From Nocardia sp. BMG111209 (GTDB lineage Bacteria > Actinomycetota > Actinomycetes > Mycobacteriales > Mycobacteriaceae), in the NCBI RefSeq assembly GCF_000381925.1, contig NZ_KB907308.1, forward strand, positions 1,426,001 through 1,490,000: a DNA stretch of 64,000 nt. The letters run 5' to 3'. Each line of letters begins with the position of its first letter. Position 1 is the first letter of the stretch. A program made the translations under genes and the position numbers. Under the pieces are notes generated by a model. That model had not been told where the DNA came from, did not search any database, and saw nothing but the letters and a program-made list of their open reading frames with translations. Below, piece after piece: positions 10,999 through 64,000 of the stretch.

Positions 10999-11005
10999 AC
11001 GACTT

Positions 11006-11857: not shown

Positions 11858-11911
11858 GGACCGTACCGTATCCCGGACCGGTCGGCATCGACAGGCGCCG
11901 CGCCGGAACCC

Positions 11912-14225: not shown

Positions 14226-14297
14226 AGAGTCTCACAACCAGCGGCGTCGCATTCCGGCACCCGGTACTCGATGCGTTACGGTTGCGGGTTTCCTCGC

Positions 14298-14314: not shown

Positions 14315-14398
14315 CACTGCATCCAATTACTGACCGATTGCCAACAGCAATTACGGGTGCCGCCACAACCGCCAGCGGTGGTTGCCTGGATGCCGTAA

Positions 14399-15423
<1,025 letters not shown>

Positions 15424-15544
15424 GGCCGAACCTCCTACTTGTCCAGTGACTGGTTGGTCCAAGGCTAGTGCAGCGGCGGGCCACGCCGTTATCGGTGCAG
15501 GTGCGCTGTCAGCGAACGGATCCCGCGCCGGGCGGACGGCGTGA

Positions 15545-16846: not shown

Positions 16847-18514
<1,668 letters not shown>

Positions 18515-18525
18515 TCCACGCGCAT

Positions 18526-18555
18526 ACTGCCCCGGACCTTCACGTCCGGGGCAGT
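18526..18555 (+). terminator. Hairpin terminator after rhlE
   Basis: A perfect 12-base stem (ACTGCCCCGGAC/GTCCGGGGCAGT) with a 6-base loop starts 11 bases after the rhlE stop. There is no long T tract, as is common in actinobacteria. Confidence 0.7.
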
Positions 18556-18677
18556 GTCGTCCGATCGCTCGGTTCGGTCCCGATACGCCGGAAGCGGGCA
18601 TCGCGGCTCGGGTCGGTGCCGCGGTCGCGGGGGTGGGGGTGGAAATGTCGCCGTTCGAAGACCGGACCGGGATCGGA

Positions 18678-18683
18678 TAGGCT
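18678..18683 (+). promoter_or_regulatory. -10 box of leaderless Rv3212-like transcript
   Basis: TAGGCT followed by seven bases and GTG 18691, with no Shine-Dalgarno sequence. The spacing matches the other leaderless boxes in this window. Confidence 0.5.
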
Positions 18684-18690
18684 CGCCGAC

Positions 18691-43154: not shown

Positions 43155-46100
43155 CTACGGTTCACCGACGGTGACGCGGTCGGATTCCGTTCCCGCAGGC
43201 GCTGCCCCGGGTGCATCGGCACTCGGGAGCCGGTGTCCGAACTGCCGCGTGAATGTGGCGCGGAGTTCGTTCAGCAATATCTGCATCTCCGCACCGGCGG
43301 CATGTCGCAGATAGCGGAAGACGACCCTGAGCAGATACTGCTCCGAGCGCCTGCAGGCCACTTTCTTCATCAGTATGTTCGCCAGGTAACGCGTGTAGAG
43401 GTATTCGGGCGACTGATCGGGGAGTGAACGACATCCCGGATAATGTCCCGCCGACCACAGCCCGTCGAAGACGTGTTCGGCCAGATACACCATCTCGTCG
43501 TCCGACAACACTGTCGCCATGTATGTGAAATGCTGATCGGGCAGTGGCCGGCCACCGTTGTGCGACATTTCGCCGTGCCAGATGGCCGGCAATTGCGGAA
43601 GTTCGTCGAGGGAAAACGCGCGAACGAGCCGTTGCACGAGAGTCAGTTCACTCGTATCGCGCGGACCTGTCGTCGCCACCGCTCCGACTCGATACGTCCG
43701 GAACTTCCGCATCATGAAGGAATCCCCGCCGGGACCTTTGCTTCGTTCCTGTTCGAACATCAGCGGTCCGCGGTTCTCGGGGTGGATCAGCATGTCGGCC
43801 TTCAGGGCCGCGACCGTCATCAGGGCAACGGTCGCGTGCAGCGGGGCACGCCGCACCAACCGGCCGAGTTCGAAGACATCCCGTTCGGTCAGCTCGCCAC
43901 GCCGGGCCATCCGGATCAGCCCGCGGACATGCTGCTCCCCGGCTTCGTGCCGCCGGGTCTCCAGCCATTCCTCGCCCTGCAATTCGCCGGGAACGGGCTC
44001 CGGCAGATCCGCGAAGTATTCGAAGCCGGGATATCGCACCAGCGCCGCCTTCAACTCCGCGACGGTCCATTCCTCCGGCGGCCTGCCGTCGTGATCCGGC
44101 ATGTCCCCGAAATCGCGGGCCTCGCCCGCCGGACGACCCGATCCACCACGAGTGCCGAACGTTCCGGAATCCGAACGCCCTTCGCCCGCAGCATGTCCCA
44201 GCGCCCACGGCGGCACATCCCGCGACGGCCGGGCCACCGCCGGATCTCGCACCGCAGACGGATCCGGAGATCCGGGCGGGTTCGGCCCATCGTGCTCGGC
44301 CGGGGCCGACCCCGCCGGGGCCGGTTTCGGGCCGGCCGGCGGTTGTGCCCCACCGGCGGGCGGCGCGGGCCGGTGGCGATTCGCCACCATCGCGCCCTTG
44401 CCGTGCCGGATCTCCACATACCCTTCGTCGGCGAGCTGCCGGTAGACGCGGCCGATCGAGGTGCCCGAGGACATCCCCAGCAACTTCGCAAGTTCCTGCG
44501 CCGGAGGCAACAGTCGGCTCTCGGTCACACCGCCGGTTTCGATCGCCCGGCACAATTCGGTGTACACCGTCTCTCGCCAGCCGTGTCGGGTAGCTCGCAG
44601 CGCCAACGCATCGCGCGACGACGCGCTTGCGAGAACTTCCAGCAACTGTTCCGCCGTGATCGGTCGGCCGACGTTCGAGACATCCGTTCGGTCCCATTGC
44701 TCTCGGTCGGTCACGGTCGTGCCGACTCCCCGCTTGCCGACGACGTACCCTTCCGTCGCCAACTGACGGTAGGCGCGCCCGATCTGCGACTCCTCCGAGA
44801 GATTCATGGCCTCCGCGAATTCCCGCGCCGACGGCAGTTCGGTGCCGGAAGCGAGGAGGCCGGAACGAATCGCTCGGCGTATCGCGTCCGTCACCGCCGC
44901 GAACCAGCCGATGCGCGCGGCATCCTCGACGAGGCCTTCGCTGACCAGTCGTCGAACAACCGGATTCGGCGACACGCGTCGCAGTATCTCCCGAATCCGT
45001 TCGATGAGGTCCGTGGACATATCGAGGGTGATCCTCAGCTCCTCGCTCACCTCTTCGGGTGTGTACCCCTCGATGAAGTGCAGCGCCATTACTCGTACGG
45101 CCAGGCGCGGGGACGGAAAATCCGCCAACGCCGTCCGCAGCGCATCCACCACGGCAGGATCGGTCAGATCCGATTCCTCGGGCGACATCTGCGGAGACTC
45201 GACCCGATTCTCGACCAGCTTCGAAAACTCGATTTCGCGAGACTCCATCAAACCCAGAATGTACTGTACCGTCGATACATCGATTCTCAGTGCGGCAGCG
45301 ATCTCGTCGTCGCCCGGCAGCTTTTCGCCGTTCTCCGTCGCTCTCCGCTGCAACCCGCGGATACGAATAATATGATTCAGCTCCTGCGGCTTCGCCAGCG
45401 GATATCTACTCTGGTAGTACGCACGGCTGACAGCCCAGCGGGCATGCGACCATGCCATCGGCCCGAAATGCCCCGGCGGGACGAAATGCTTGGTGGCAGC
45501 GAATATTTTCAGCGCAACGATCGAGGCGAGATCGTCATCCTCCAGACCACGAATTCTCCAGCCTCTCGTCGAGATTTCCGGCATCCACGCGTAGCGATCG
45601 TAGACGATGTTACGGATCCGCTTCTCCTCCGACGACCCGGGGCTCGTCGCGATCAATTTCCAGAACAACTCCTCCTCGTCGTGGTCTCGCACGCGGATGT
45701 CCGATCGCGAGTAGAAGCGGCGCAGCGCCGCAACCAAGACCTCGTTCGGCACATTCAACGCATCCCGGAATTTTCGCAGGTACTCGAGGCGCGGACGCAG
45801 ATGCCGTTCGGCCGAGCGGACCGTGGATACCCGCACTCCGATCCGCTTCGCAAACTCGCCGGGCTGGGATCCGTAATGGTGGCGTACCGCCTCCAGCCAC
45901 AGATTCATCGAGTCGTACCGTGCCGGATCGGGTACGCCGTTCCGGTCACCCGACTGCCCGCCGGTCGGGTACGCCGTGTGCTCGTTGTCGGTAACGGCTA
46001 CGAGATCGCGATCGTCGTCGATCTGCGGCACGACGACCGCGGTGAGGATCCGATCCGCGGTCACGGCGACCCGGCCGGACATCTCGAGCAACGCCGGATC

Positions 46101-49100
46101 GATATTCGCGTCGTCGTCGACATCGATGTACGCGCGGAACGTCCACTCCTCCGGCGCGAAGACCAGCCGGATGTCCGACCAGACGATCCGGTGCGCGGTC
46201 TGCGTGAACCATGCCTTGTAGACAGCCTCTTTCGCGGAGAACAGCACGCGATCCCAATGAACACCGCCGTGCCGGCCGAACTCGGTGAGCCACCGGCGCT
46301 CCTCGGCGACCGCCACCGTGTCGAGCACTCCGTCCGGCAGCGGTGCGTGGTCCTCGGCATCGATACCGACCGACCGCACCGACCGCGAATCCGCAACCGC
46401 CGCAGCATAATAGCCATCTTTGTGCGTGATACTGCCCACGACACCGTCCGGCCACAGCGGAACCCCCTTGTGCCCGCGCAACACCGCGAAAGCTCCGTGA
46501 CCTAGTCCGGCCAGCGCGCGCCGCGCGGCCGCGCGGCCGTTGATCAACTCCACCAGTCGCTTGTTCGCCTCGCGGCCGGTGACCAGGGCTTCCGCCTCTT
46601 CCGGCAGCAATTCACCGGCCGCCTCGCGCCCGACGATCTCGGCCGTGTGCAGTTCCGGCAGCAGCCGCGCCATCATCGGGACATCGGCCGCCGCCGCACC
46701 CGCACCGCCGAAAGTTCCGGAGTCCGAGCGTCCTTCGCTCGCGGCGTGCCCCAGTGCCCACGGCGGTACGTCCCGCGACGGCCGGGCCACTGCCGGATCT
46801 CTCGATTCGCGCGCCTTCGCCGGAGGCAGATCCAGATCGATGTCCGGAGTGGATGCCGGGGCCGGGGCGGTCAGGGCCGGGACGGCCGGCCGCTCGAGTG
46901 CTGCTGCCGCTTGCCTCGTCGCCACGATCACATCGGATTTCGCGGACAGTGCGCGGACGATCGTGGCCATTGCGGCGGGGCTCATGAAGTCGGCCACGGT
47001 GTCGCGCAGGTCGGTCAATTCGACCAGCAGCCGGGCGATTTCGCGGTGGGCGTCGCGGAAGGTCCGCTCCTGCGGGTAGCGGGTCGTGGCGGCGGCCAGG
47101 AGGTCGGCGGCGCGCTTCAGCAGGCCGAGTCCGGTGGCGGTGTCGCGGGTGCGGGTGAGGTGGTACACGGCGGTATCGAGCAGGCGCGTGAGCTCGGCCG
47201 CCCGCAACGGCGGGTCGGCGGTGCTCGTTACCGCGGCGGCGCCGGGTGGGGTGGCGAACAGCTCGACGACGGCACGATCGACGCCGGATTCTCTGCGGGA
47301 CAGCAACATTCGGTCTATCTCGGTGACCGGGGCCGGAACCTCGCCGTGCGCGAACGGAGCCGCGATCACCATGGCGATGGCGCCGAAAATGCTGCGGTAC
47401 TGCTCCTCCGGCTCGTCCCCGGGTGACAGCAGACGCCGACTCGCCGAGGGGATCAGACGCAGATTGTGTTCCAGCTGAAATTCCAGGCGACCCAGGCCCT
47501 CGGCGATGAAACCGGTCTGTCGCAGCACCGCGGCCGTGTCGATACACGCCGCCACGCTGTCGAACAGCGTTTCGGCCGCCGCTCGCATATCGCGGACGAC
47601 CGGGATCCAGCCTTGCAGGTGGCCCACCGCGCCGAACAGGGTTTCGTAGTCCGGGACGTCGTCGGCAGGCGGAGTGTCTTCGCCGATTCGATATCGCAGT
47701 TCGAGCAACAGGATGTTGAGTGCGCGTGCGGCGCCGACGAATTCCGCGGCGGGAGGTGTCTCACCGCGACGCAGCATGTCGAGATGACCGGCCAGGGCCC
47801 AGTGCAGATGCCTGAGCGCGGTATGGGCGTCACTGTCGGTCAACTCCGCCATCCGATCGGAGAGTTCTTCGAAAGTGGCATTCGGGAGATCGGACATGTT
47901 CAATTCCGGCGGCGGCACGCTCGCGTCCGGAGCCATTGCCGACAGCGGCGCGGACTCCTGGGGTCCGTCGGCCACACTCGGGTTCCACGGCCGCCCCGAA
48001 GTCATCGAATAGCGGGTGTCGACGGGGAACGACCGCGCATAGCGCGGCAGCATGGGGAGCACCGGCGGGATCCCTGCCGCTGCGGGGGGTATCCGGGCAC
48101 CGATCGCGCTCAGAAGATTCGGCATGAGACCGTTGTCCAGTGCCGAGACCACACTCGCACCGGTATCCCGCGCCGAAGCCCACTCCAGGCTGGCCGTCGT
48201 CCAGGCGACGACGTACTCGTTGTGCACGAATCCGATCTGTTCCGGTGTCAGCAGCCCGTACGACGCGGCCCGAGTCAGCCGGATGGTGTCGTGGATGAGC
48301 CGCTCGATCGCCCCCAGGATGCCGTAGGGCGGCTTTGCCCGGCCGATACCGGTCAGCAGGTGCAGGCGTCCCGCGTCGTAGTCGCGCGGCGCTACCCGCC
48401 ACAGCTCCCAGTCCAGCACCACCACCTCGATCCGGCCGTCCACAGCGACGAGGAGCAGATTGCCGAAATGCGGGTCACCGTGGACGATCTGGCTGCGCAC
48501 CGGATCCATCAGCCAAGACCACCTCACCACCGGCGCGAAGGGGTCGTGCCGAGGGATACGGAGGGCCGCGAAATACGCGCCGAATTCGTCGTACGCAGCT
48601 CGATACCGCTCCGTCTGTTCGGCCGCCACCTGCCGGATGAATTCGCCCGTATCGATGTGTGGCACCGGCACGGCGGCGAGCTCCCGATAGAGCTCGTCGA
48701 GTTCGCTCACCAAGAGCTCCACCGGCGGCGAGTCCATATCGGCGACACGCTGGGCGTCCTCGACGAATCCGAGGATCTGGACGCCGTGCACCCGCCGGCC
48801 GTCCGGCAGTACGACGCGGTCGAGCAGCCCGAACAGCCGGAGACCCCGGCGGACGCGGTATTTGGCGAGTATCTCGTAGATTCGCCATTCGAGTTCGGGC
48901 CTGGCGTCCAGTCCGTCGCCACCCGACAGCCGGATACGTACCAGGAATCGACCGGTTTCCGGATCACCGACGGGGATGTTGAGATTGTAGTTTCCGGCCA
49001 TGGCCTGCGGCAGTTTTCGGAGTGCGGCTTCGACCAATCGCCGCGCGACGTCCTCGGGCATGGGCACACGGTGGTCCGCCGGGCCGGGAGACGCACCGCG

Positions 49101-55100: not shown

Positions 55101-58100
55101 GCTGACCGTCGACTGCGGCACTCCCGCGAGGTGTGCGATGTGACGCTGTGTCGGTCTGCCGGTGAATCCGGTGGCCAGGAAATCGAGATAGCGCATGCGC
55201 AGCAGCGGGAACCCGGCGACGGACATGGCGGCATCGGGCAGGGATTCCGGTGCGCCACCCGCCGCGTGTTCGAAAGCTACTGCCGCGAAGTACTTTTCGA
55301 GCGCCTCGAGCAGGGGCGCGCAGGACGGTGCGCTGTGGGCCAGTCGCCGGAATTCCGCGAGCCGGTCGGCGGCCGGGGGGTGCCGGTGCGGTGCCTGATC
55401 GGACCGTCCGAGTATCCCGTCCAGTTCCCGCATCAACACTTCGTTGTGCTCGGCCGACCGCTTGCGGTGCGCTTCGAGCTTCGCCTGCTGCCCGACCGTG
55501 GCCGCGTCCTCGCCCGCGGCCGCCCGGGTGACGAGCTCGATCCGGTGGTGATGGGCGAGCCACCGACTCATCCACCCGGTGAGGTCCTCGAGCCGCACCT
55601 CCCGCAAGGCCCGCTCCGGCATCACCGACAGATGGCGTTGAATCATGTTGACCGCCAGTCGCATCGGCCCCGGAACGATATGTTCCGCCGGAGCCGGCAG
55701 GAGGGCGTTCGGAGCGGCGAGGTCCCGGGCCGTCCGGTCGGCGATCACCTGGTCCAGATTCGCTGCGGGGGCGACTCCGTCCAGCGCTGCGACCGCGTCG
55801 CGGTAGGCCTCGAGAATGTGCAGCGGTACGTCTTCCGGGGACAGTTTGCCGGCGAGCGAATACTCCAGCAGGCCCTTCAATTCCGACAGGATGGCGACGG
55901 AGATGTCGAACGGGGACCGCACCGGATCCAGGGCCGAGCGATGTCCGAAACGCAGATACGCGTCGAGGGCGAGGAATACCGCGCTGCCGTCCTCGGGATT
56001 ACCGTAGGACAGCAGGAAGATCTTTCCGTCCTGTTCGAGCTCCGGAATGCGTTCGGGGGTCAGCACCCAGGCGGAGTCGAAACGTAGATAGTCGTAGACC
56101 TGTTCGAGCGCGGCCATGAATCGGGCGGTGTCGACTCCCGCGTCCCGCAGGTCGTGGAGCCACGTGTCGAGCGGATCGTCCTCGGTGACCGCATCCGGGG
56201 AATTGCGCACCGACAATTCGCCCCAACGCCGGAATGCGAACTGATCGACCGGCTCCGTGGCGTCGGGCTTCCGCACCCACGGCGACGGTGCGGGGGCTGC
56301 ACCGGCTGCGGGGTCGTCCACCGCGGACCGCACCTCCGACGTCGGCCGACTGCCGGAAACCCCTCCGGCCTCGGTGAAGTCGCGCTCGACCTCGAGATAT
56401 TTCTCGGCCGATTCCAGGCCACGTCGCTGTTTCGAGGTGAGGGTTCCGGTGCGCTCGCGTGCCCGCAATCCGACGGCGAGTTCCTGCACCCGTTGCCGGA
56501 ACGGCTTCCCGGCGTCGTGGCGGGCCCAGCTGTCGCCGCCGAGTTCGATCAATTCGGCTCTGAGGCGCTGCAATTCGGCCCGCCGTCCGGCCAGGTATTG
56601 CGCGACCGTATTCGAGGCGCCGTCCGGGTCCCGCCGGTTGCCGGGGGCGAAGCCACCGCCGGTCGCGTAGGTCACGGCGAGTTGCTCCGGGCGACTCTTC
56701 CCTCGCTCGAACCGGCGGCCGTGATCGAGCGGATTGCCGTCGAGGCCGAGGGGGTCGTCGGCGTCGGGCACCCTCATCGAACCCCGCAGCGGGCGTGCGG
56801 ATCCGGAGCCGGTGCTCGGGGCACGAGTCTCGGCGCGTGTGGGAACACGGCCTGCCGCGGCGCTCCACGGGGTTCCCGCGGCGGCCGGTGGCTCGGCGGA
56901 ATTCGTTGCGGCAGTGGTCTTTTCGGTCGTGTCTGCGGGTCCGGCCAGCGCCGCCGCCGCGACGGTGACATCGTCGCGGCCGCCCGCCTCGATGGCGGCT
57001 CGCACGAGAGCGCGGGGGACGGCGCTGATATCGCCGTCGGACTCCGCGAGCGCCTCACGGAGAATGTCCGCGAGGGGCGTGGGGTCGTCCGGGCTGATCG
57101 GCTCCCACATTCCGTCCGAGGTCACCACGACGATGCCGGGGCCGGAGACGCCCTCGACCGTCGTCGCATGCGATTGCAGCCCGTCCAGGGAACGGCCGAG
57201 GCAATGGGTGAGGCCGCCGCCGAACGGCGAATGCTCGGCCTGCTCGCGGGAGAAACCCAATCCGTCCATGACCCTCTGGACGTTCGAGTCGTCGACGGTC
57301 AGCTGCTGCGCGGGTTGCCCGTCCAGCGGTATCCAGTACACCCGGCTGTCGCCGACCCAGTCGACGGTGAGCCGGCCGGATTCCAGCAACGCGACGGCGA
57401 TCGTGGTGGCGGGGGAACTGTCGGCGCCGGCTTCGGGGTCCAGGGCGAGCACTGCCTCCTGGGCGGCCGCCACCGCACCCCGGACCGTGGCGACGGGGTC
57501 GATCCGGCCGGTGCGGGCGGCCCGATCCAGCGCCGCGGCAACGTATTCGCGCGCGGCCTCCTGGCCGGCGGCGGAGGCGCGGTGACCGCCGCGCGGCCTG
57601 GACAGCCCGTCGAAGACGAGCATCGCCGTGACCTCCTCGCCGCCGACGGTCGCCGTCAGCAGCAGGAAGGCATCCTCGTTGTCCGGGTGGTCCGGACTTC
57701 GAACACTCGCTGCCGCAACCGAACCCAGGTCCTCCTGGCTGAGCTCGGCTTCGACGTACTCGCGCGGGGAAAGGCCCGAACCCAGGCGTTCATCGAGTTC
57801 GTGAGCGCGAGCCGTGGCGGCGCGCAGCCGCTGCGCGGCATCCTCTCTCGCTCGTTCCGAGGTGTCGGCCTCCTCGATGCTGCGCACCATGGCGCCCATC
57901 AGCCATGCGTCGAGTCGTTCCCGCAGGGGGCCGAGTCGCCGGATCGCCCTGTCGTATTGCTGCGCGATGTTGTCCGATGTGGTGTGCGGCAGCATCGAGA
58001 CGGTCTCGAGCCAACTGGTGAGGCCCTGCAGCGCATGGTAATCCGCCACCGAAGGATCCGACGCGCTCCCGTCGAGCGGGTCGTCGTCGTCGACGCGCTG

Positions 58101-61100
58101 CGCGGCGACGGTCGTGTCGGTGAAAATCAGGTCGTTGACGAGGTCCACCTGCGCGATGTCCGCGCTGCTCAGTTCGGCCAGCGCACCGACTGCCGCGGGT
58201 CGTGCGCCGGGATCTCGGTGGGCAGCGGCCAGTATCGCGGCGAGGCGACCGACCGTGAGAAGCGCGGCCTGGATGTCGGCCGCCCGCACGGCGTCGGCCG
58301 CGTGACGCGCGAGTTCCGCGGTAGCCGAGGATATTTCGTCGACGGTCGCGGCGAACTCGGTCAGACCTCGCAGGCGTTCCGCGGAGATCCGCTGGGCTCG
58401 GCCACGCCGGGCAGCTCGGAGTTCGGCCAGCCGGACCGTTGTCGAGCTCGGCCGGCCCGCCGGGCCGGTGCTCGAATCCTCCTGTGTGCGATACGGATTG
58501 CCGGAGACCACGGGCTTCGGCGGCGCCGCGGTGTAGGCCGGATGTGCGGGGTAGGTCGTCGCCGAACCGCCACTGCCCTGCTCCCGGCCGATCCTGGTGG
58601 TGGGGCCGGCGGTCCGGGTCCAGTCGACGACCTGATCGGGACCCAGCGGGATCTCGGGAATTCCGTTGCGGTGGAAGATGATCGCCGAGGCGGAGCCCCC
58701 GGCGGATTCGACGGCGGCGAGTTGCGCCAGCCGGCGGCGGGCCCGAACTCCGGTGTGGTTGTGGTGTTCCAGCTCGCCATCCGCACCCGCGATGGTTTCG
58801 TGCAGGTGCAGCCCGCCGTCGTCGCCGGTCGTGACGGTGAGGACGTGGCCGTCGATCTCGTCGGGCCGGGCATTCGGGTTCTGGATCGCCAGGATCGCCA
58901 GATCGGCCACGTCGTCGGGATCCTCGATGCGGGAGATGAAATGCGCGAGCGTTCCACTCGCCCACTGTGCGTGGGCGTACTGCGCGAGTTCACGCGGATG
59001 CAGGCCGGCCAGCCGGACGATCGCCAGGGTGTCGTCGTCGGGCAGCGTGATGGGACTGTTGTCGCCGTAGCGTTCGGCGGCGAATCTCAATTCGGCTGTG
59101 CCGCACAGGGCCGGCAGTGCGGCGACGGCGTCCGTCCGGGCCGCGGTACTGCCGGCCGCCACCACCGGCCCGCTGTCGGCGAGCGTGCGCGGTTCGTCGC
59201 GGAAACGGATCCGCGTCGTGAAGACTCCGCGCATTCCCGGCGGGTATTTGCTGGTGGCGTCCAGCGGCTCGGACTGCTTTTCCCCGGCCGCGACATTCTC
59301 GCCGGCGTGAGCGATCTCGAACCGTATCCCCTCGCTGTCGAGGAAGACCGCGAATTCCACCGAGCCGTCCGTTCGGGCCCGCACCTCGAGCAGCAACTCC
59401 TCGGCGGCGGACACCGCGGCGGCCCGGTCGGCGGCCGACCGGTCGAACAGGAGATCGCGGATCAGATCCCCGATCACCGACACCGCGGAGTCCGTGGCGA
59501 TATCGGCCGAGACGGGTATGTGCCACGCCTCCGCCGGCCGCTCGGGCCGGGCCGGCCGGCTCGCCATCTCCTCGTCCGAGTAATACGTGATGACCATGAC
59601 GCCGAGGCCGTGCTCGGCGTAGGAGATCGACTCCCCCGCACCGGGGAAATCGTGGGCTTCGAGCACCCGGACCGATTTCACCCGCGGGTCCGAACGGATG
59701 ATCTCCAGATACGGCACCCGCAGCCAGGCCGTGTTCGGGAACAACACATCGCCCGCGTAATAACCCTTGCCTCTGCCTTCCGGGCCCGCCTCGTCCTGGT
59801 CGTTCAGCATGAAAGCGATGACGCTGCATTCGCGCGCCGCCGCCATCGCGCGCGTGAATCCCGTCAATGCGTCCGAGAGTTCCCAGCTGAGCGAGTCGTG
59901 GACCCAGGTCATCTGGGACATCGCCCAGCGCCGCTCCGGCAGTGTGAAGATATTTCCCCGGGTGGGTGTGGCCTCGCTCAGGAGCTCCGATATCACGGCG
60001 TCGATTCGGTCGTTCGAACTGTCCGCGTCGATCCCCGAGTCGTGGTCCGGGTAGTACCGGGACATGATCTCGGCGATCGCCGGAACCCATTGCCGCCAGA
60101 TCCCGCGACTGTCGAATGTCCGGGGGATGCCGTGGACATCGATGTACCGCTGCCGCCCCGAACTGCGCGTGGCCTGCAACGCCTCCCATTCCTGCTTGTT
60201 CCCCTCGTAGAGAATCTGCTCGAAACCGCCTCGCACGAAGGCGGACGTGCCCAGCTCGTAGCCGAGCGCATTACCGCCGCCGATGTCCCCGGCGCTCTCG
60301 AACTGCCCCGGCGCGAAGCCCTCGGTTCGCAGGAACCGGATGATGGCGTCGTTGATCGTGAGGTCGTGGCTGTAGATCCGGTGCACGAACCGCGGCAGAT
60401 CGAACGCACCCGGCCGGTAATGGTCCGCGGGCACGAAGACCCCGTCGACCCACTCGCCGACGTAATTGCGCAGAATGTATTCCTCTGCGCCCCATTCCTG
60501 CTCGGCCTCGAAGGCATCCGATTCGCCGGCCGGTCCGGCGGCCGGATCGCCGGTGACGTCCGCCAATTCGTCGGTGGATTCGACGAGGCGGTCCGCCGCC
60601 TCGTGCCGGATCCGCCGATAGCGCATGACCAGGTGATACGGGTCCCAGGATTTCGCATACTGCCGCGAGACGAATTCCAGGAATCGGAAGGACCTGCCCT
60701 GGGCCTGCGGCCATTTCCGGACGATCAGTTCCTGCAACCGCGCGATCTCGCCGAGCATCACCGAGTACTCCAGGTGCCCGCGGCTCACGTAATAGGACGG
60801 GGAGGGCCGCGTTCCGAACCCGTAGAACCGCGCGATCCGGGCCGCGTCCAACAGCTTCCGGACCTCGTCCCGCGAGCTCTCCGGAGCGGAATCACCGCGA
60901 TGCCCGGCGATGGTCGTGTGCGCGAATTCGCGAATCAGATCCGGATCGACGGGCTCGTCCTCGGCGAGATCGTAGCGGGAGCGCACCAGACGTTCCACGT
61001 CCGCCAGTGCGGACAACGACATGCGAGCGGTATCGGCCGGCATACCGGTGAGACCCATGATCCGGTGCAACCCCGCGCTCCAGCCGGCGAATTCGCGCAG

Positions 61101-64000
61101 CTGATGGATATTCGGCGGGAACCGATCGAAATCGTCCTCGGCCCGATAACGCGCGATCGCCGCCAGGACCGTCCGCACGTTCATCTCCGCGGCCGGCCGT
61201 TCCGGCGGCCAGTCCAGGACCACTCGTAGCCGCTTACCGAACTCCTCGACATCGGGCACGAACAGTTCCGGGCTGCCGAACTCGTTGTCGAGCCACCGCA
61301 TCAGACCGTCCAATTCACCGGGCGAATCCACGCCGCCGAATTCACCGGACAAGGCCAGCAATGCCGCCCAGCGCGCGGGATCCTCGAGACCGGCGAGGTA
61401 TCGCTGCGCGGCGGTCCGGAAGCGCTCGACGCGCCACGACCGGTCCTCCCGCACCTGCGCCAGCACTGCCCGGACAGCGGCCGGACCACCCGAGCCGACG
61501 GTCGTACCCAGGCTGGTTGCCAGCTCGGCGACCCGGCGGCGCAGTCCGTCCAGGTCGATGACGGATTCGTACGGTTCATCCGGGTGCAGCCGGACTGTCC
61601 CTGTCGTGTAGCGGGCCCGATGCCATACCGCGATTCGCAGGCTCCGCCCGTCCGGCTCCAGCCGGATCTCCAGTCCCATCCCGCGACTCACCTTCGACCG
61701 CAGGGCATCGGCGCCGAACACCCGCACGGCGACGTCGCTCGCCGCCGCCGCGACCGGTTCGGTTCCGCCCAGCAGTTCGGTCACCAGAACGCGCACCGCG
61801 TCGTCGAGGTGATGCCGTTCGGTGGTGTCGTCGAGGTAGCGCCAGATCCGGATTCCGGTGCCGGACGGGGTCGCGATGATCGTCACCTCGTCGCGCTGGG
61901 ACCGGTTGACCACGGCGAGTTGCACCGACGACGTGCCCGATGCCCGGGCCTCGACCCCGACCTCCACCCAGGGCAGGCGAGTGGGGTCGAGGTCGTATCC
62001 GTTGTCCAGACTGCGTTGACCGAAGTACGCGACCGCGCGCCGGATCATCGCGCTCCGCGATTCGAGCGCGAGATCGATCACGCTGCCGACCGAGGTGTGC
62101 ACCTCGGCGAACGGTATTCCGCTCTGTTCCAGGCGGTTCACGAGCGGCGCCACCAGGTCGGCGGCCACCACCCCGCCGCCCCACCGCAGCCGGAACACCA
62201 TCGACCGGTCGATGTTCTCGCTCGCGACTTCGACCGACACGTCGTCGTCGCGTACCTCCAGGATCACCGACGCCGTCGTGGCGCGTGAACTCCCCGGGTA
62301 CTCGAACACCCGGCGCGCCAGATCGTGTACCGCCGCCGAGGTCGCCGCCACCCGTTCCTGCGGCCGACCGTGCATCGCGGTAGCCACGACGGCCTCGACG
62401 TGGCTGCGCGACACGTCGCTCGGCAGCATCATCGTCACGGGTCCGCCACCGTCCGGCGTCGCGGCGGGATCGAGTCCGGAAAGGCCGGCGTGACCGGGCT
62501 CGTCCGGGCCGAAGAACATCGCTTTCACCGGCCGCTCCGGCGGACCGAAATCGCCCTGCCCGGAACGGATCTCGATATCGCGCAGGTTCGCCCCGGACCA
62601 CCACAGCGCCACGACCCGGTCACCGGAACCGCGCAACAGCAGGTAGGCCCCCGGACCGTCCCCGGAGTCCGGATGATGACCGGCCACCACGGCCCATGTT
62701 CCTGCGGGGGTGGCGAGCAGCCGGCCGAGCAGTCGGTCCCGCGGGCTCACACCGGATTCGGTTGTGTCCGCGCCGAATTCGCCGAACGGCACGGGAGCGG
62801 TCGGTGCGTATCGGACGTCGGACACGGACAGGGTCGATCGGGGACGTCGTTTCACGATCTGTTCGAGATGGCCGAGCAGGATCAGCCGGCGGGCCGTCAC
62901 GGCCACCGGGCCCCGTTCCCGGGTGGCTCGTTCGACCATGTGCCGCAACGGTTTCCGGTCCAACTCGGCGGGTTCCAGGCCCAGCGCCGCCAGTTGCTCC
63001 CGATCCGGTGTCGCGCCGAGCGCTTCGGCCAGCAGCCATCCGGCCAGCCACACCTGGAAGCCGTCCAGTTCGCGCTGGGTGCCGGTGCCGCCGGTGAGGA
63101 CCGCGGCGATCGTGTCCACGAGCATGGGGATTTCGGCCGTGCCGGAAGCAGCAACGATGTCCCGCAGGACATCCAGTGGATCGACGTCGGCGACGAAGAT
63201 GCCGCCGGACGGGTCCGGCACCCCGAGCAGCGCCCGGAGTTCGTCGCTCAGTTCTTCCGCGCGGTCGGCCAGCCCGGCACGCAGCCGCTCGTCGACGCGA
63301 CCCGTTTCGATCGCCGTGGCAGTCGCGCGGTCGGCCTCCTCGAAGTATTCGATCTGCTCCTTCAGCCAGCGCAGCAGCCGGGCGATGTCCAGCTCGATCG
63401 GGCCCGGCGGCATCTCCGTACCGCGAACCGTCTGGGCGAGCATGGTCACGGCCTGGCGCAGCCGGGCGGGTTCCAGTAGGCGTGGGGAGATGTCCAGCAG
63501 TTCGGCGGCATCGGCCACGGCCGGGCGCGCACGCATGCGATCGATCTCGGCGCGAAGATCCGGCAACGCGGTGGATTCGTCGGCGGCCGAGTCGATTTCG
63601 TCGTCGTCGACCGCATTCGCTGCCGTCGGCGGGGCCGAGCCCGAGTACGCGGCGACCAGCTCGACGAGGTGCTGCCACACCACCTGTTCACCCTCGGTGA
63701 GCCGGTCACCGCGCAAGCGCGCCACCACGGTCTCGGCGTCGGCCTCGTCCGCGACGCACACACCGTTGATGTCGTAGCTGTAGCGGGAGAACTGCCGGGC
63801 GAGCCACTGTTCGAACGCGCCGGCGGCCGTACCGTAGGTGGCGGCGAAATAGTCGCGCAGCACGCCGAGGCTGTCCGACTTCGGCCGGGTGTACCGGATT
63901 TCGCCGAGCGCTTCCCAGAGCAGCTCGCGGAGGCGATGGGTCAGTTCGTGCACGGTGAGGGTGAAGTACGGCCGATCCGGATCCCCGCGCAGCGCGCCGG
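43155..64000 (-). CDS. Giant mosaic multi-enzyme protein, 5' end beyond the window
   Basis: One frame without a stop runs from the TAG at 43155 to the right edge, at least 6,947 codons. In protein order (falling coordinates) I see an HELTH segment (63936-63950), a long unassigned region, a SAM methyltransferase (about 59570-60490), 180-residue repeat A (58581-59120), a helical module, a PP2C phosphatase (about 56940-57740), a LacI-like HTH (about 54960-55240), sigma-factor-like domains (about 53870-54720), repeat B (53202-53741), a Nudix domain (about 52630-53090), a DUF3626-like region (about 51560-52560), repeat C (50775-51314), helical modules flanking an APH-type kinase (about 48130-49110), a phosphopantetheinyl transferase (about 46010-46680), sigma/HTH and two GntR-type winged helices (about 44380-45950) and a sugar-transferase domain (about 43270-43870). 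Recurrent Pro-Trp linkers join them. The WXG-like neighbour suggests a type VII-linked effector or toxin; this is inference. Confidence 0.85.
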   Translation of the reverse strand, partial: GALRGDPDRPYFTLTVHELTHRLRELLWEALGEIRYTRPKSDSLGVLRDYFAATYGTAAGAFEQWLARQFSRYSYDINGVCVADEADAETVVARLRGDRLTEGEQVVWQHLVELVAAYSGSAPPTAANAVDDDEIDSAADESTALPDLRAEIDRMRARPAVADAAELLDISPRLLEPARLRQAVTMLAQTVRGTEMPPGPIELDIARLLRWLKEQIEYFEEADRATATAIETGRVDERLRAGLADRAEELSDELRALLGVPDPSGGIFVADVDPLDVLRDIVAASGTAEIPMLVDTIAAVLTGGTGTQRELDGFQVWLAGWLLAEALGATPDREQLAALGLEPAELDRKPLRHMVERATRERGPVAVTARRLILLGHLEQIVKRRPRSTLSVSDVRYAPTAPVPFGEFGADTTESGVSPRDRLLGRLLATPAGTWAVVAGHHPDSGDGPGAYLLLRGSGDRVVALWWSGANLRDIEIRSGQGDFGPPERPVKAMFFGPDEPGHAGLSGLDPAATPDGGGPVTMMLPSDVSRSHVEAVVATAMHGRPQERVAATSAAVHDLARRVFEYPGSSRATTASVILEVRDDDVSVEVASENIDRSMVFRLRWGGGVVAADLVAPLVNRLEQSGIPFAEVHTSVGSVIDLALESRSAMIRRAVAYFGQRSLDNGYDLDPTRLPWVEVGVEARASGTSSVQLAVVNRSQRDEVTIIATPSGTGIRIWRYLDDTTERHHLDDAVRVLVTELLGGTEPVAAAASDVAVRVFGADALRSKVSRGMGLEIRLEPDGRSLRIAVWHRARYTTGTVRLHPDEPYESVIDLDGLRRRVAELATSLGTTVGSGGPAAVRAVLAQVREDRSWRVERFRTAAQRYLAGLEDPARWAALLALSGEFGGVDSPGELDGLMRWLDNEFGSPELFVPDVEEFGKRLRVVLDWPPERPAAEMNVRTVLAAIARYRAEDDFDRFPPNIHQLREFAGWSAGLHRIMGLTGMPADTARMSLSALADVERLVRSRYDLAEDEPVDPDLIREFAHTTIAGHRGDSAPESSRDEVRKLLDAARIARFYGFGTRPSPSYYVSRGHLEYSVMLGEIARLQELIVRKWPQAQGRSFRFLEFVSRQYAKSWDPYHLVMRYRRIRHEAADRLVESTDELADVTGDPAAGPAGESDAFEAEQEWGAEEYILRNYVGEWVDGVFVPADHYRPGAFDLPRFVHRIYSHDLTINDAIIRFLRTEGFAPGQFESAGDIGGGNALGYELGTSAFVRGGFEQILYEGNKQEWEALQATRSSGRQRYIDVHGIPRTFDSRGIWRQWVPAIAEIMSRYYPDHDSGIDADSSNDRIDAVISELLSEATPTRGNIFTLPERRWAMSQMTWVHDSLSWELSDALTGFTRAMAAARECSVIAFMLNDQDEAGPEGRGKGYYAGDVLFPNTAWLRVPYLEIIRSDPRVKSVRVLEAHDFPGAGESISYAEHGLGVMVITYYSDEEMASRPARPERPAEAWHIPVSADIATDSAVSVIGDLIRDLLFDRSAADRAAAVSAAEELLLEVRARTDGSVEFAVFLDSEGIRFEIAHAGENVAAGEKQSEPLDATSKYPPGMRGVFTTRIRFRDEPRTLADSGPVVAAGSTAARTDAVAALPALCGTAELRFAAERYGDNSPITLPDDDTLAIVRLAGLHPRELAQYAHAQWASGTLAHFISRIEDPDDVADLAILAIQNPNARPDEIDGHVLTVTTGDDGGLHLHETIAGADGELEHHNHTGVRARRRLAQLAAVESAGGSASAIIFHRNGIPEIPLGPDQVVDWTRTAGPTTRIGREQGSGGSATTYPAHPAYTAAPPKPVVSGNPYRTQEDSSTGPAGRPSSTTVRLAELRAARRGRAQRISAERLRGLTEFAATVDEISSATAELARHAADAVRAADIQAALLTVGRLAAILAAAHRDPGARPAAVGALAELSSADIAQVDLVNDLIFTDTTVAAQRVDDDDPLDGSASDPSVADYHALQGLTSWLETVSMLPHTTSDNIAQQYDRAIRRLGPLRERLDAWLMGAMVRSIEEADTSERAREDAAQRLRAATARAHELDERLGSGLSPREYVEAELSQEDLGSVAAASVRSPDHPDNEDAFLLLTATVGGEEVTAMLVFDGLSRPRGGHRASAAGQEAAREYVAAALDRAARTGRIDPVATVRGAVAAAQEAVLALDPEAGADSSPATTIAVALLESGRLTVDWVGDSRVYWIPLDGQPAQQLTVDDSNVQRVMDGLGFSREQAEHSPFGGGLTHCLGRSLDGLQSHATTVEGVSGPGIVVVTSDGMWEPISPDDPTPLADILREALAESDGDISAVPRALVRAAIEAGGRDDVTVAAAALAGPADTTEKTTAATNSAEPPAAAGTPWSAAAGRVPTRAETRAPSTGSGSARPLRGSMRVPDADDPLGLDGNPLDHGRRFERGKSRPEQLAVTYATGGGFAPGNRRDPDGASNTVAQYLAGRRAELQRLRAELIELGGDSWARHDAGKPFRQRVQELAVGLRARERTGTLTSKQRRGLESAEKYLEVERDFTEAGGVSGSRPTSEVRSAVDDPAAGAAPAPSPWVRKPDATEPVDQFAFRRWGELSVRNSPDAVTEDDPLDTWLHDLRDAGVDTARFMAALEQVYDYLRFDSAWVLTPERIPELEQDGKIFLLSYGNPEDGSAVFLALDAYLRFGHRSALDPVRSPFDISVAILSELKGLLEYSLAGKLSPEDVPLHILEAYRDAVAALDGVAPAANLDQVIADRTARDLAAPNALLPAPAEHIVPGPMRLAVNMIQRHLSVMPERALREVRLEDLTGWMSRWLAHHHRIELVTRAAAGEDAATVGQQAKLEAHRKRSAEHNEVLMRELDGILGRSDQAPHRHPPAADRLAEFRRLAHSAPSCAPLLEALEKYFAAVAFEHAAGGAPESLPDAAMSVAGFPLLRMRYLDFLATGFTGRPTQRHIAHLAGVPQSTVSVALRRAAPDHSDAEQLILLAAEWLGYPIPAALRSALDPVLAGLRPDRPAGDRPAPTQDTSPKPSPWAPGAARTSRIADASPAPVANTATAEQPVDEDPRLRAPDREEVRRLGETRADGGGWVRGRPGNQDGSGDSIRQRFDELLARGHAEEAVALLRQHFAHNVFPWVRANVRSPGTAREIYDAACANAVRRIDQIGTRDLEGWVVLNVRNLVAEARTRTGIATREPGTAESAVPTESHPEVPTAELVAALRRSSIVARLPRVVRDAMDNDADAVIECLEQLAPEPQRLLGLRFAHELPVQRTAELLGRSAGAVRTAQRTAFLRLARLLEERAGKEPLAVVQDARDNDVEAFDRCLAQLGDNQRAAIEGRLLRNLPAGELTATLGPNHGRTYYRAVARLSALLLDDAQARPGGDADRELVRSTPARVLARAVAEHLRDRDGLDDTEPDTANHAVVQALCGVAELGFARERYGETCPITLPDPAAGAIMRQIGIHPRELAQYAHGRWTSGSIGAFVRRIADVGDPADLALLTIQYRDDRPDDIDAHTLSLTTDATGALHVHHVTPRTDGEPEHHNFTGLPAYRYLDRLAELEAAGAAVSAIVFHRNGTPESPIGPDSAVDWTRSPGPRTRIGRESTERTEPAREPISGPNRVATPDEPEYPFRIVDDPGMSGDREVEPGYWGHYGAAGVLVRHVDRFGAERFLVCRSNSGYSQHNWQLPGGALCSAETPAQGAAREMSEELGANAEYLAGLAHTGTHVIHGPRGWKYHVLVAETRERFDPIVDDTEVAEARWVSRDELIAMAGRGEVHSALARNLPAVLDLFEPGAADADESAVPQVPDAAPVAVGPERARPRPIIRALDRAMLDDYIRLYEFGQAAFGDPDRTPEVARRNEDFFARYPQARDPAVRGQLVQRHAVMQQAGRLAADLGLSVAEVEARMTRELSDLVEGKPLAVRIRPEALFGLLAAGRFTTQFEGTLGGGFRADVARLEDRWFGNPEDMDPRSRPVYGYVLIAGEHPAGLSDAGISAGSPGGRVGLQTESLAMYGRIELVLKQDVRERATFCVGDSLVYSGSRIGGKPARTIPSPLLDPQPESFCVGTLSANTPEEDRPLAGMNRDYLGGAFRQHQFVESQIHGGITLADIDHINLPEAPDPELRAALDRAGVPWRVLDSHALVRGNDAEAVARERLRLEEDLAMVEARLTDGRRTLEHFEGSTAPGDRKLFEHTRVQLRNIEAMRDRIVEMLEPLTTVPPDARGAAGPANSSVVQALCGVGELEFARGRYGETCPITLPDTDSRAIMRQIGIHARELAQYAHGRWTGGSIAEFVARIEDSGDLADLAILTIQYRDDRPDYVDAHAFSITTDDTGGLQLHETIPRPDGEPAQHNFTGPQARDRLAQLAELEVGGATVSAIIFHRNGTPESPIGPDTVVDWTRSAGPTTRIGRERKVPQLRAPAGPAADPVPAPAGDAVTADELRDWTAGLTTAAAWRAMVDLRDRVAERSAAVERGETPPMTYLTDPGRALNAVLAELRARSGAAMAALVASGDPDWTDEQDLVDTARAVTGWADLEFDMHRSAEAVTNVLGTVRALQYAPNPLHDLPIGFAEIYDHLTDLATALRGPSVEKVRAQLIATAMAIRSDGNGRETLFRVDLADSYLDTRSRRQPDPVLATAFARLPDRATAFAQAQDAGGDRRAETGADYVRDLLTIAMHQLVDTTDHVSGLRNLRRAIDVLTELNQLGDHPSLRAVAAALDRLHTRMQNAAWTQRHVHISTPRIAEIAHEYFVVGSRLRDELAQGLAELQATPGDARSDRPTLPWSVEPVFSAIPVPGEPVARAPGRPLTPDALFEEILRVVGSEIVTQNIIAEATAAVGDDSAALASTAHTLAVRQLRFALHRQQVLIRLTKSMEADSSNPLIRAIALATRQQWDRHLAEFDSDQLAAFLEVFWHGRSDRAAADIADRVAYRLATRLAAESPQHPDPARHDAGPAEPDRIPGLLTIAEYLPRGASPGPADHRVPMPEDVARRLVEAALRKLPQAMAGNYNLNIPVGDPETGRFLVRIRLSGGDGLDARPELEWRIYEILAKYRVRRGLRLFGLLDRVVLPDGRRVHGVQILGFVEDAQRVADMDSPPVELLVSELDELYRELAAVPVPHIDTGEFIRQVAAEQTERYRAAYDEFGAYFAALRIPRHDPFAPVVRWSWLMDPVRSQIVHGDPHFGNLLLVAVDGRIEVVVLDWELWRVAPRDYDAGRLHLLTGIGRAKPPYGILGAIERLIHDTIRLTRAASYGLLTPEQIGFVHNEYVVAWTTASLEWASARDTGASVVSALDNGLMPNLLSAIGARIPPAAAGIPPVLPMLPRYARSFPVDTRYSMTSGRPWNPSVADGPQESAPLSAMAPDASVPPPELNMSDLPNATFEELSDRMAELTDSDAHTALRHLHWALAGHLDMLRRGETPPAAEFVGAARALNILLLELRYRIGEDTPPADDVPDYETLFGAVGHLQGWIPVVRDMRAAAETLFDSVAACIDTAAVLRQTGFIAEGLGRLEFQLEHNLRLIPSASRRLLSPGDEPEEQYRSIFGAIAMVIAAPFAHGEVPAPVTEIDRMLLSRRESGVDRAVVELFATPPGAAAVTSTADPPLRAAELTRLLDTAVYHLTRTRDTATGLGLLKRAADLLAAATTRYPQERTFRDAHREIARLLVELTDLRDTVADFMSPAAMATIVRALSAKSDVIVATRQAAAALERPAVPALTAPAPASTPDIDLDLPPAKARESRDPAVARPSRDVPPWALGHAASEGRSDSGTFGGAGAAAADVPMMARLLPELHTAEIVGREAAGELLPEEAEALVTGREANKRLVELINGRAAARRALAGLGHGAFAVLRGHKGVPLWPDGVVGSITHKDGYYAAAVADSRSVRSVGIDAEDHAPLPDGVLDTVAVAEERRWLTEFGRHGGVHWDRVLFSAKEAVYKAWFTQTAHRIVWSDIRLVFAPEEWTFRAYIDVDDDANIDPALLEMSGRVAVTADRILTAVVVPQIDDDRDLVAVTDNEHTAYPTGGQSGDRNGVPDPARYDSMNLWLEAVRHHYGSQPGEFAKRIGVRVSTVRSAERHLRPRLEYLRKFRDALNVPNEVLVAALRRFYSRSDIRVRDHDEEELFWKLIATSPGSSEEKRIRNIVYDRYAWMPEISTRGWRIRGLEDDDLASIVALKIFAATKHFVPPGHFGPMAWSHARWAVSRAYYQSRYPLAKPQELNHIIRIRGLQRRATENGEKLPGDDEIAAALRIDVSTVQYILGLMESREIEFSKLVENRVESPQMSPEESDLTDPAVVDALRTALADFPSPRLAVRVMALHFIEGYTPEEVSEELRITLDMSTDLIERIREILRRVSPNPVVRRLVSEGLVEDAARIGWFAAVTDAIRRAIRSGLLASGTELPSAREFAEAMNLSEESQIGRAYRQLATEGYVVGKRGVGTTVTDREQWDRTDVSNVGRPITAEQLLEVLASASSRDALALRATRHGWRETVYTELCRAIETGGVTESRLLPPAQELAKLLGMSSGTSIGRVYRQLADEGYVEIRHGKGAMVANRHRPAPPAGGAQPPAGPKPAPAGSAPAEHDGPNPPGSPDPSAVRDPAVARPSRDVPPWALGHAAGEGRSDSGTFGTRGGSGRPAGEARDFGDMPDHDGRPPEEWTVAELKAALVRYPGFEYFADLPEPVPGELQGEEWLETRRHEAGEQHVRGLIRMARRGELTERDVFELGRLVRRAPLHATVALMTVAALKADMLIHPENRGPLMFEQERSKGPGGDSFMMRKFRTYRVGAVATTGPRDTSELTLVQRLVRAFSLDELPQLPAIWHGEMSHNGGRPLPDQHFTYMATVLSDDEMVYLAEHVFDGLWSAGHYPGCRSLPDQSPEYLYTRYLANILMKKVACRRSEQYLLRVVFRYLRHAAGAEMQILLNELRATFTRQFGHRLPSADAPGAAPAGTESDRVTVGEP
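43270..43870 (-). other. Domain: bacterial sugar transferase (undecaprenyl-phosphate GT type) in the giant protein
   Basis: GPLMFEQERSKGPGG, FMMRKFRTYRV and FSLDELPQLPAIWHGEMS with a following GGRPLP match the conserved core of Pfam Bac_transf enzymes, including the DE pair. The membrane helix that normally precedes this core is not evident, so the domain may be soluble or inactive. Confidence 0.7.
44154..44249 (-). repeat. 32-residue linker repeat, copy 2
   Basis: This segment encodes a 32-residue linker beginning RDPAVARPSRDVPPWALG and ending GRSDSGTFG. It is identical to the copy at 46707-46802 in 31 of 32 residues. It separates the winged helices from the sugar-transferase domain. Confidence 0.9.
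44380..44920 (-). other. Domain: two GntR-type winged helices in tandem in the giant protein
   Basis: Two copies of the GntR DNA-binding fold follow each other. The first contains LPSAREFAEAMNLSE, IGRAYRQLATEGYV and KRGVGTTV; the second LPPAQELAKLLGMSS, IGRVYRQLADEGYV and RHGKGAMV. They are paralogous to each other. Confidence 0.75.
44950..45950 (-). other. Domain: HTH and sigma-70-like region in the giant protein
   Basis: An XRE-like segment (GEFAKRIGVRVSTVRSAERH) is followed by a helical region with sigma-type features: PGDDEIAAALRIDVSTVQYI resembles sigma-3, and FIEGYTPEEVSEELRI resembles a sigma-4 HTH. Assignment is by pattern only. Confidence 0.5.
46010..46680 (-). other. Domain: 4'-phosphopantetheinyl transferase (Sfp/EntD type) in the giant protein
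   Basis: The complete signature is present: VVGSITHKDGYYAAAV, SVGIDAEDHAPLPDGV and LFSAKEAVYKAWF, holding the Mg-binding acids and the KE-x3-K motif. The enzyme family transfers phosphopantetheine from CoA to carrier proteins. Confidence 0.85.
46707..46802 (-). repeat. 32-residue linker repeat, copy 1
   Basis: This linker lies just before the phosphopantetheinyl transferase domain and matches the copy at 44154-44249 in 31 of 32 residues. Confidence 0.9.
48130..49110 (-). other. Domain: APH-type kinase in the giant protein
   Basis: IVHGDPHFGNLLLV (48459-48488 region) and VVVLDWELWRVAPRDYD give the Brenner-type catalytic loop and metal-binding Asp of aminoglycoside/choline kinase-like enzymes. 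The N-lobe strands are less clear. Substrate unknown. Confidence 0.75.
50775..51314 (-). repeat. 180-residue repeat C (Cys/His domain) in the giant protein
   Basis: Exactly 540 bases, from VVQALCGVGELEF to RIGRE. Invariant Cys follows QAL and invariant His lies in YVDAHAFSIT. It is very similar to repeat B at protein and DNA level. Confidence 0.9.
51560..52560 (-). other. Domain: DUF3626-like region in the giant protein
   Basis: FTTQFEGTLGGGFRADV, SRPVYGYVLIAGEHP and ELVLKQDVRERATFCVGDS, ending with FVESQIHGGITLADI, resemble the DUF3626 family as I remember it. A coiled-coil-like stretch follows (about 51360-51560). Function unknown. Confidence 0.5.
52630..53090 (-). other. Domain: Nudix hydrolase in the giant protein
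   Basis: The Nudix box GX5EX7REUXEEXGU is intact (GGALCSAE and AREMSEELGA), preceded by HNWQLPGG. The family hydrolyses nucleoside diphosphate derivatives; no substrate-specific motif is visible. Confidence 0.85.
53202..53741 (-). repeat. 180-residue repeat B (Cys/His domain) in the giant protein
   Basis: Exactly 540 bases, from VVQALCGVAELGF to RIGRE, with the invariant Cys and with His in DIDAHTLSLT. It lies between the sigma-like domains and the Nudix domain. Confidence 0.9.
53870..54720 (-). other. Domain: ECF sigma-factor-like module in the giant protein
   Basis: A sigma-2-like helical region (IYDAACANAVRRIDQIG and DLEGWVVLNVRNLVAEARTR) is followed by two sigma-4-like HTH units: LPVQRTAELLGRSAGAVRTA, and a more diverged ELTATLGPNHGRTYYRA. 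Each is preceded by a CLxQLxxxxQR helix. Confidence 0.65.
54960..55240 (-). other. Domain: LacI-like helix-turn-helix in the giant protein
   Basis: PTQRHIAHLAGVPQSTVSVA has the spacing and residues of a LacI-family HTH. The hinge and sugar-binding domain of LacI do not follow. Confidence 0.65.
56940..57740 (-). other. Domain: PP2C-type protein phosphatase in the giant protein
   Basis: All PP2C motifs are present in order: HPDNEDAFLL, AMLVFDGLS, SPATTIAVALLE, VDWVGDSRVYWI, VVTSDGMWEP and GGRDDVTVAA. The metal-binding aspartates are intact, so activity is plausible. Confidence 0.88.
58581..59120 (-). repeat. 180-residue repeat A (Cys/His domain) in the giant protein
   Basis: Exactly 540 bases, aligned with repeats B and C without length change. 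The invariant Cys is in LPALCGTAEL and the invariant His in EIDGHVLTVT. It is the most diverged of the three. Confidence 0.88.
59570..60490 (-). other. Domain: SAM-dependent methyltransferase-like in the giant protein
   Basis: YSHDLTINDAIIRFLRTEGF, the glycine loop DIGGGNALGYELG (about 60250-60287), and the later GNIFTLPERRWAMSQMTWV and AEHGLGVMVITYY resemble NNMT/PNMT-like methyltransferases of actinobacteria. The acceptor is unknown. Confidence 0.6.
63936..63950 (-). other. HExxH-type segment at the visible N-terminal end of the giant protein
   Basis: HELTH within RPYFTLTVHELTHRLREL has the zinc-protease HExxH pattern. The third ligand cannot be assigned because the domain is cut by the window edge. 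Confidence 0.4.

Follow-up and report, generated by a model that had tools for sequence, protein, structure and literature searches.

Extent of the Giant Frame

The window analyzed here, a 64,000-nucleotide stretch of the Nocardia sp. BMG111209 genome, ends in a minus-strand frame (43155..63998, 6,947 codons open) that leaves its edge. What kind of protein would such a frame encode, and where would that protein act? The first-pass annotation of this DNA had described a single frame of at least 6,947 codons on the minus strand, running off the edge and not an antisense artefact, and both statements held. When followed rightward on the same contig (G000:C2), the frame reaches its first ATG uninterrupted at window coordinate 102,797 (G000:C2:1528797), with the first upstream stop at 102,827, so that the full protein has 19,880 aa, with 0 stops and 0 N, and about 2.2 MDa by length. 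This ATG fits the start of a homolog, P0002 (MNLPSDFPM here, MGLPSDFPM in P0002). The G+C content by codon position (0.75/0.53/0.82), an 18,559-aa ortholog at the syntenic place in Nocardia aurantia with conserved neighbors, and the dN/dS values given below rule out an antisense artefact or an assembly error. Open frames also occur antisense to the giant gene, at 56154-61229 (+) of the window (1,691 aa) and at L002:3070-9480 (+) (2,136 aa), and are ordinary for GC-rich coding DNA.

Domain Organization

From the N-terminus, the giant consists of a WXG100-type domain, a disordered tether, a SecA-type motor, about 9,000 residues of degenerate repeats and a tail of shuffled modules. Residues 1-300 were assigned to the WXG100-type domain through relatives, as they align along their full length with the N-domains of 12 relatives, and 9 of the 13 aligned members match PF25547 (WXG100_2, best E-value 8.5e-21). 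Taken alone, the giant's own N-domain gave a sub-cutoff match to PF06013 (E 0.033). A profile of the N-domain searched against the PDB best matched designed coiled coils, with EsxA chains at E 0.02. Substrates of type VII secretion systems (T7SS) carry YxxxD/E as an export signal; by eye, the strict form is absent from the giant's N-domain, where the sequence reads YEVAND. The following features come after this domain:

Residues 355-842, linker rich in Pro, Ala and acidic residues
Residues about 850-1400, SecA-type motor
Residues 1442-1725, linker of disordered composition
Residues 1777-1830, LuxR HTH (Pfam)
Residues about 2000-2230 and 2700-2960, papain-like modules (C, H and D visible; by eye, without Pfam match)
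Residues 2306-2586, MFS module (Pfam)
Residues about 2,930-12,000, degenerate multi-domain repeats (paired copies 22-46% alike in a tile comparison)
Residues about 12,000-19,880, module tail

The predicted structure of the repeat region had a pLDDT of 52.7. Residues 6240-6275 touch the Gln_amidase profile at 24.0 bits, just below its cutoff of 24.1; this match, the Tox-PL-like modules seen by eye and the toxin labels of homologs are the candidate signs of a toxin domain in the giant. A Pfam scan in slices covering all 19,880 aa found no NRPS or PKS domain (A, C, KS, AT or carrier), which excludes a polyketide or peptide synthetase, as had been concluded from the window alone.

The SecA-Type Motor

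The motor matches PF07517 (2.4e-15), and its sequence matches in the PDB are SecA and SecA2. Its AlphaFold model (pLDDT 81.8, pTM 0.80) ranked SecA first in Foldseek, the best match being the substrate-engaged SecA-SecY structure 6itc (E 4.3e-31, TMq 0.73, rmsd 4.4). In common with the SecA/SecA2 translocation ATPases, it has the NBD1, PPXD and NBD2 fold and the corresponding motifs (Walker A, Walker B, RGxDI), and across 14 aligned giants the Walker A glycines and lysine as well as the DExD residues do not vary. The architecture of SecA also includes a helical scaffold, a wing and a two-helix finger. None of these three was found in the motor, nor did the Pfam scan give a further SecA family there; the similarity stops near residue 1,400, and the linker at 1442-1725 comes next. 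Unlike SecA and SecA2, the motor is embedded in a chain of 19.9 kaa. Among the segments tested between the orthologs it is the most constrained, with 92% identity to Nocardia aurantia RB56 and a dN/dS of 0.146.

Modules of the Tail

The window holds the C-terminal third of the giant gene and its downstream partner, all on the minus strand:

41419..43068 (-), 549-aa partner with WXG100-like N-terminus (PF06013 3.7e-4, below its cutoff), Pro/Ala linker and C-domain
43155..64000 (-), C-terminal third of the giant gene (residues ~12,934-19,880), continuing to the ATG at 102,797
43530..43829 (-), sugar transferase (Bac_transf) module, PF02397 2.1e-14
44154..44249 (-), linker repeat copy 2
44358..45965 (-), XRE-type HTH, sigma-70-like and two GntR domains (GntR 5.1e-21); missing from the N. 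aurantia ortholog
46158..46571 (-), 4'-phosphopantetheinyl transferase (PPTase) module, profile 2.6e-18
46707..46802 (-), linker repeat copy 1 (RPSRDVPPWALGHAA.EGRSDSGTFG), 87% DNA identity to copy 2
48360..48998 (-), APH-type kinase module (HGDPHFGN, LDWE), profile 3.2e-8 when the segment was scanned alone, not detected in long-slice scans
50775..51326 (-), repeat module copy C (residues 17158-17341)
51618..52640 (-), module common to G010 (59% identity, one tile), weak sub-cutoff DUF3626 match
52704..53009 (-), Nudix module with intact Nudix box, profile 2.9e-14
53202..53753 (-), repeat module copy B (residues 16349-16532)
53898..54830 (-), sigma-factor-like module (sigma-70 region 4), PF04545 2.1e-8
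56928..57830 (-), PP2C phosphatase module, PF13672 2e-5, motifs intact
58578..59117 (-), repeat module copy A (residues 14561-14740), papain/Tox-PL-like by eye, without Pfam or NCBIfam match
59166..62480 (-), segment 13440-14544 with methyltransferase-like end, NCBIfam SCO2525 family, E 1.7e-4, sub-cutoff
63405..63998 (-), HExxH module (HELTH, residues 12950-12954), same segment as 4540-5259 of P0002 from Nocardia sp. alder85J

Most domains named in the first-pass annotation found profile support (PP2C, Nudix, PPTase, sigma-70 region 4, GntR, APH, sugar transferase), and the methyltransferase stayed below the cutoff. The HExxH module may be a metallopeptidase, to judge by a motif that occurs by chance about 0.7 times per shuffled sequence. 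Copies A, B and C of the repeat module share 72-79% DNA identity. We also considered the dipeptide PW of the linkers as a general processing site and rejected it, since PW is hardly enriched (27 seen vs 23.9 expected).

Judged by their diagnostic motifs, the Nudix, PPTase, PP2C, APH and sugar-transferase modules are intact in this giant. The N. aurantia ortholog has a broken Nudix box; of the two PPTase motifs, G019 keeps both, one is changed in G023, and in G029 they are degenerate; and the PP2C aspartates are retained in the five relatives aligned (5/5, by eye). Since motifs are intact in some giants and broken in others, the modules appear to drift between enzyme and pseudo-enzyme, and activity should not be assumed.

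Giant Genes in Nocardia

A search for homologous giant frames showed them to be common in Nocardia. Pooling the matches listed for the motor, PPTase, sugar-transferase and PF25547 queries, which yields a lower bound, at least 49 of the 59 Nocardia genomes carry frames of this kind with at least 5,000 aa. Among the matches listed for the motor, SecA-like matches in frames of at least 2,000 aa were present in at least 33 of these 59 and in none of 40 genomes from other genera of the order. PF25547 was present in all 59, with 41 of the 150 matches listed falling in frames of at least 5,000 aa. A protein-database search, restricted by length and to the best 807 word-sharing candidates, gave 32 relatives, the named ones from Nocardia, Amycolatopsis, Mycobacterium and Streptomyces. 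Their labels include toxin families, for example a YwqJ-related deaminase and a scabin-related ADP-ribosyltransferase. In the databases, giants of this kind are mislabeled, for instance as PPTase, MFS transporter, LuxR regulator or SecA.

The genome studied here has two further giants, one of 13,771 aa (ownC3, G000:C3:26979-68291, about 8 kb from an EccC gene) with a rearranged relative in N. aurantia, and one of 12,295 aa (ownC1, G000:C1:1351058-1387942, about 20 kb from EccC). The largest giant, of 40,807 aa, lies on a single contig of G051 with no N in the stretch. It is followed in tandem by giants of 10,828 and 15,942 aa, all on one strand over ~205 kb (G051:C1:1856633-2062110, L071-L081); the three start with WXG100_2-like sequences by eye, and none of them has a SecA match. 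A 27,381-aa frame in G005 (G005:C135:2-82144, L083-L087) is open to the contig end and so possibly longer, and an EccC gene starts 17 kb beyond it.

Selection and Module Shuffling

Between the giant and its N. aurantia ortholog, dN/dS is 0.49 over 17,936 aligned codons, a value that includes some pairings of repeat copies, possibly non-orthologous. It is below 1 in every tested segment except the poorly aligned LuxR region (1.01), and two long linkers gave 0.61 and 0.69. Domain order, whose comparison between strains the first-pass annotation had recommended, is rearranged relative to N. aurantia. Segments 12039-13035 and 18945-19564 occur only in the giant described here, and the Nudix block (16553-17157) is relocated. 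This block sits here between two repeat modules 79% identical in DNA, where N. aurantia has one such module instead, an arrangement that would be the footprint expected of recombination between flanking repeats. A relative of 6,439 aa in Nocardia sp. alder85J has a smaller, permuted set of modules. The earlier idea of a domain store used by recombination was therefore right about shuffling, but a frame under purifying selection is not merely a store.

Tiles of the giant compared with 12 giants other than the ortholog had mainly the SecA region in common at a fixed place, and the N-domain weakly by BLAST. The PP2C, MFS, sigma, GntR, PPTase, APH and sugar-transferase modules recur in these 12 giants at unrelated positions and in unrelated orders. 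Across the 12 giants and the rearranged orthologs, the N-terminal part thus stays constant, whereas the C-terminal modules vary and are exchangeable. When 8,955-10,000 aa of every one of five other giants were scanned with Pfam, the vocabulary of the tail turned up in three (G049, G023 and G029), which also hold amidase, M3 peptidase and alpha/beta hydrolase modules. The ownC3 scan gave calpain and the ownC1 scan SecA plus a sub-cutoff Gln_amidase; besides these there was one spurious-looking match.

Capture of ordinary local genes is disfavored, because the PPTase and sugar-transferase modules, the two tested, are closest to modules of other giants. All six best non-self matches of the PPTase module fall within frames of 2,824-17,205 aa. 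For the sugar-transferase module, the 28 best non-self rows comprise 27 in frames of 1,831-27,381 aa and one in a 357-aa frame. The best giant modules scored 245 bits (PPTase) and 166 bits (sugar transferase) vs 136 and 24 bits for the stand-alone copies of the same genome; the PPTase separation is modest, with stand-alone genes coming next at 146 bits.

Gene Neighborhood and ESX Linkage

The direct neighbors of the giant are the 549-aa WXG100-like gene, 86 bp downstream, and, 183 bp upstream, a gene whose 357-aa product contains a phage-lysozyme domain (PF18013, 1.9e-38); neither of the two gaps contains an immunity-like gene. Both neighbors, plus genes beyond, are kept in N. aurantia. Relatives of the N-part of the 549-aa protein adjoin 10 of 13 other giants, including that of N. 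aurantia; the exceptions are G041, ownC3 and the second giant of N. aurantia. Relatives of its C-domain occur next to other giants and within ownC1; this C-domain looks similar, by eye, to the giant's HExxH module, but has no HExxH. The N-terminal part of the lysozyme protein has a weak relative (30% identity) just past the ESX genes.

These ESX (type VII) genes form a locus upstream of the giant. The EccC gene (TIGR03924 match at C2:1561462) is 33 kb from the giant gene end and 36.5 kb from the motor. Between ~123 and 141 kb in window coordinates are genes that we take to resemble EccE, EspG, two Esx proteins, PPE, PE, EccB and EccA; EccD and mycosin were not identified among them. Among the matches listed, at least 10 of 17 SecA-type giants have EccC within 75 kb vs 0.97 expected under uniform placement, the limit having been set after inspection of the rows and the giant's own distance measured from its gene end; for the other seven (7/17), no EccC was listed within 75 kb.

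Hydropathy of the MFS Modules

A chain that leaves the cell must keep its membrane segments from inserting in the producer. The MFS modules of giants had a top-10 window hydropathy of 1.12-1.46 in 7 of 7 examined, a set that excludes a partial MFS match in the G005 giant. Stand-alone MFS controls from the same genome (n = 20) had a mean of 2.10 (sd 0.11, minimum 1.89), each being the most hydrophobic long ORF of its locus, a choice that favors high values; another three, taken from the window, had 2.04-2.08. The available part of a report on type III/IV effectors describes transmembrane segments just below the targeting threshold (PMC6110835). The weak hydrophobicity of the MFS modules supports exported membrane segments, without proving export, since lost function also lowers hydropathy.

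Interpretation

We consider it probable (about 0.68) that the giant is a multi-effector protein that takes the ESX (type VII) route, is of one kind with the giant polymorphic toxins and carries a SecA-type motor of its own. This reading starts from the observed frame, domains, SecA fold, conservation, synteny and shuffling; from these we infer export, motor direction, processing and targets. The WXG100-type N-domain and the adjacent WXG100-like partner would recruit the giant to the ESX machine, and the co-located lysozyme would open the peptidoglycan. The tethered motor (NBD1-PPXD-NBD2) may spend ATP to unfold or drive the long chain, with the repeats as backbone and the C-terminal modules as cargo. 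Some of this cargo could be released by the papain-like or HExxH modules, which are candidate autoprocessing proteases, and the cargo set would evolve through recombination between repeated modules and linkers. Of the explanations first put forward, a type VII-linked effector is thus favored by the N-domain (through relatives), the partner gene and the ESX neighborhood, and no finding spoke for a giant signaling scaffold. Several observations weigh against the effector reading: the sub-cutoff WXG100 match of the giant itself, the missing YxxxD/E and immunity-like gene, the partial SecA, the 7 of 17 SecA giants without a listed EccC nearby, the 40,807-aa giant without SecA, the few recognizable modules in ownC1 and ownC3 and the broken motifs in relatives. 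We know of no ESX machine that passes a chain of ~2 MDa.

Regulators of bacterial type stand out in this giant and in three of the five others scanned, and its catalytic motifs are intact, as would suit an ATP-driven regulatory or assembly scaffold that stays in the cytosol, its sigma, GntR, LuxR and PP2C modules acting on the producer. We regard this as unlikely in view of the WXG100-type N-domain of relatives, the WXG100-like and lysozyme partners, the ESX linkage, the toxin families in homologs and the attenuated MFS hydrophobicity. Slightly less likely still is an ESX-exported adhesin or contact device that stays on the mycolate envelope, its modules being mostly inert bulk or serving antigenic variation. 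About 9 kaa of degenerate repeats, module shuffling and the PPTase and Nudix motifs broken in some relatives would agree with it; the intact catalytic motifs of this giant, the PP2C aspartates in every aligned copy and the strongest constraint falling on the motor would not. Duplicated and permuted modules and lineage-specific insertions could even mark a recombinational graveyard, a long frame that gathers gene fragments and is functionless as a whole. That appears very improbable for a frame open at full size in two species, with only one tested segment (17,936 codons in all) whose dN/dS is not below 1 and two tested modules matching other giants better than local stand-alone genes. As a speculative extension of the effector reading, to which we give long odds, the giant might be a self-propelled delivery vehicle: the WXG100-type domain would dock at or cross the recipient membrane and the motor would ratchet the 2-MDa chain across. 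Regulators of the sigma, LuxR and GntR kinds, together with PPTase, kinase, phosphatase and transporter domains, would in this way enter neighboring bacteria, which would be reprogrammed rather than simply killed, and the cargo would be reshuffled by recombination.

Relation to Known Systems

MARTX-type toxins follow the same logic as the effector reading, with many effector modules per exported chain and possible self-processing, but differ in exporter, repeats and protease. CpnT of Mycobacterium has an N-terminal domain of the WXG100_2 kind, a single C-terminal toxin and a small size. It is ESX-linked (available parts of PMC7810871 and PMC8593097) like the Nocardia giant, which in contrast has a SecA-type motor and a module array. 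The huge proteins of Omnitrophota, as far as the accessible text describes them (PMC11573180), are very large bacterial proteins of an unrelated lineage.

The closest precedent lies within polymorphic toxin systems. The accessible sections of Zhang et al. (2012, PMC3482391) report giant multi-toxin proteins of actinobacteria, which like the Nocardia giant are very large and combine several domains, toxic ones in their case. The first-pass annotation had held that ordinary polymorphic toxins are unlike this protein, which is true of the small ones but not of these giants. The same sections describe N-termini of the WXG type combined with papain-like Tox-PL1 modules, which are either toxic or act in processing, and mention SecA-like helicase-related domains for Amoebophilus effectors only. 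The Nocardia giants go beyond these sections in their length (20-40 kaa), in the combination of a SecA-type motor with the WXG100_2 family, and in having bacterial regulators as well as PPTase, sugar transferase and MFS modules. Absent immunity genes are taken there, for Wolbachia proteins, as a sign of host-directed toxins; the bacterial-type cargo of the giant points away from such a target. The literature searched gave no description of an ESX-linked multi-module giant with a SecA-type motor, and on our best reading the giant is known in kind, as a giant actinobacterial multi-toxin protein, and new in its motor architecture.

If the effector reading is true, some of the largest proteins in a major actinobacterial genus are ESX-linked multi-module effectors carrying their own SecA-type motor. 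Three questions would follow: by what means an ESX system passes a chain of ~2-4 MDa, whether translocation can be powered by the secreted protein itself, and what is gained by exporting bacterial transcription factors and metabolic enzymes as cargo.

Two other giants (L036 and L044) are preceded, in an operon-like row, by a 565-aa WXG100-type gene and a 143-aa gene, the latter presumably YbaB-like.
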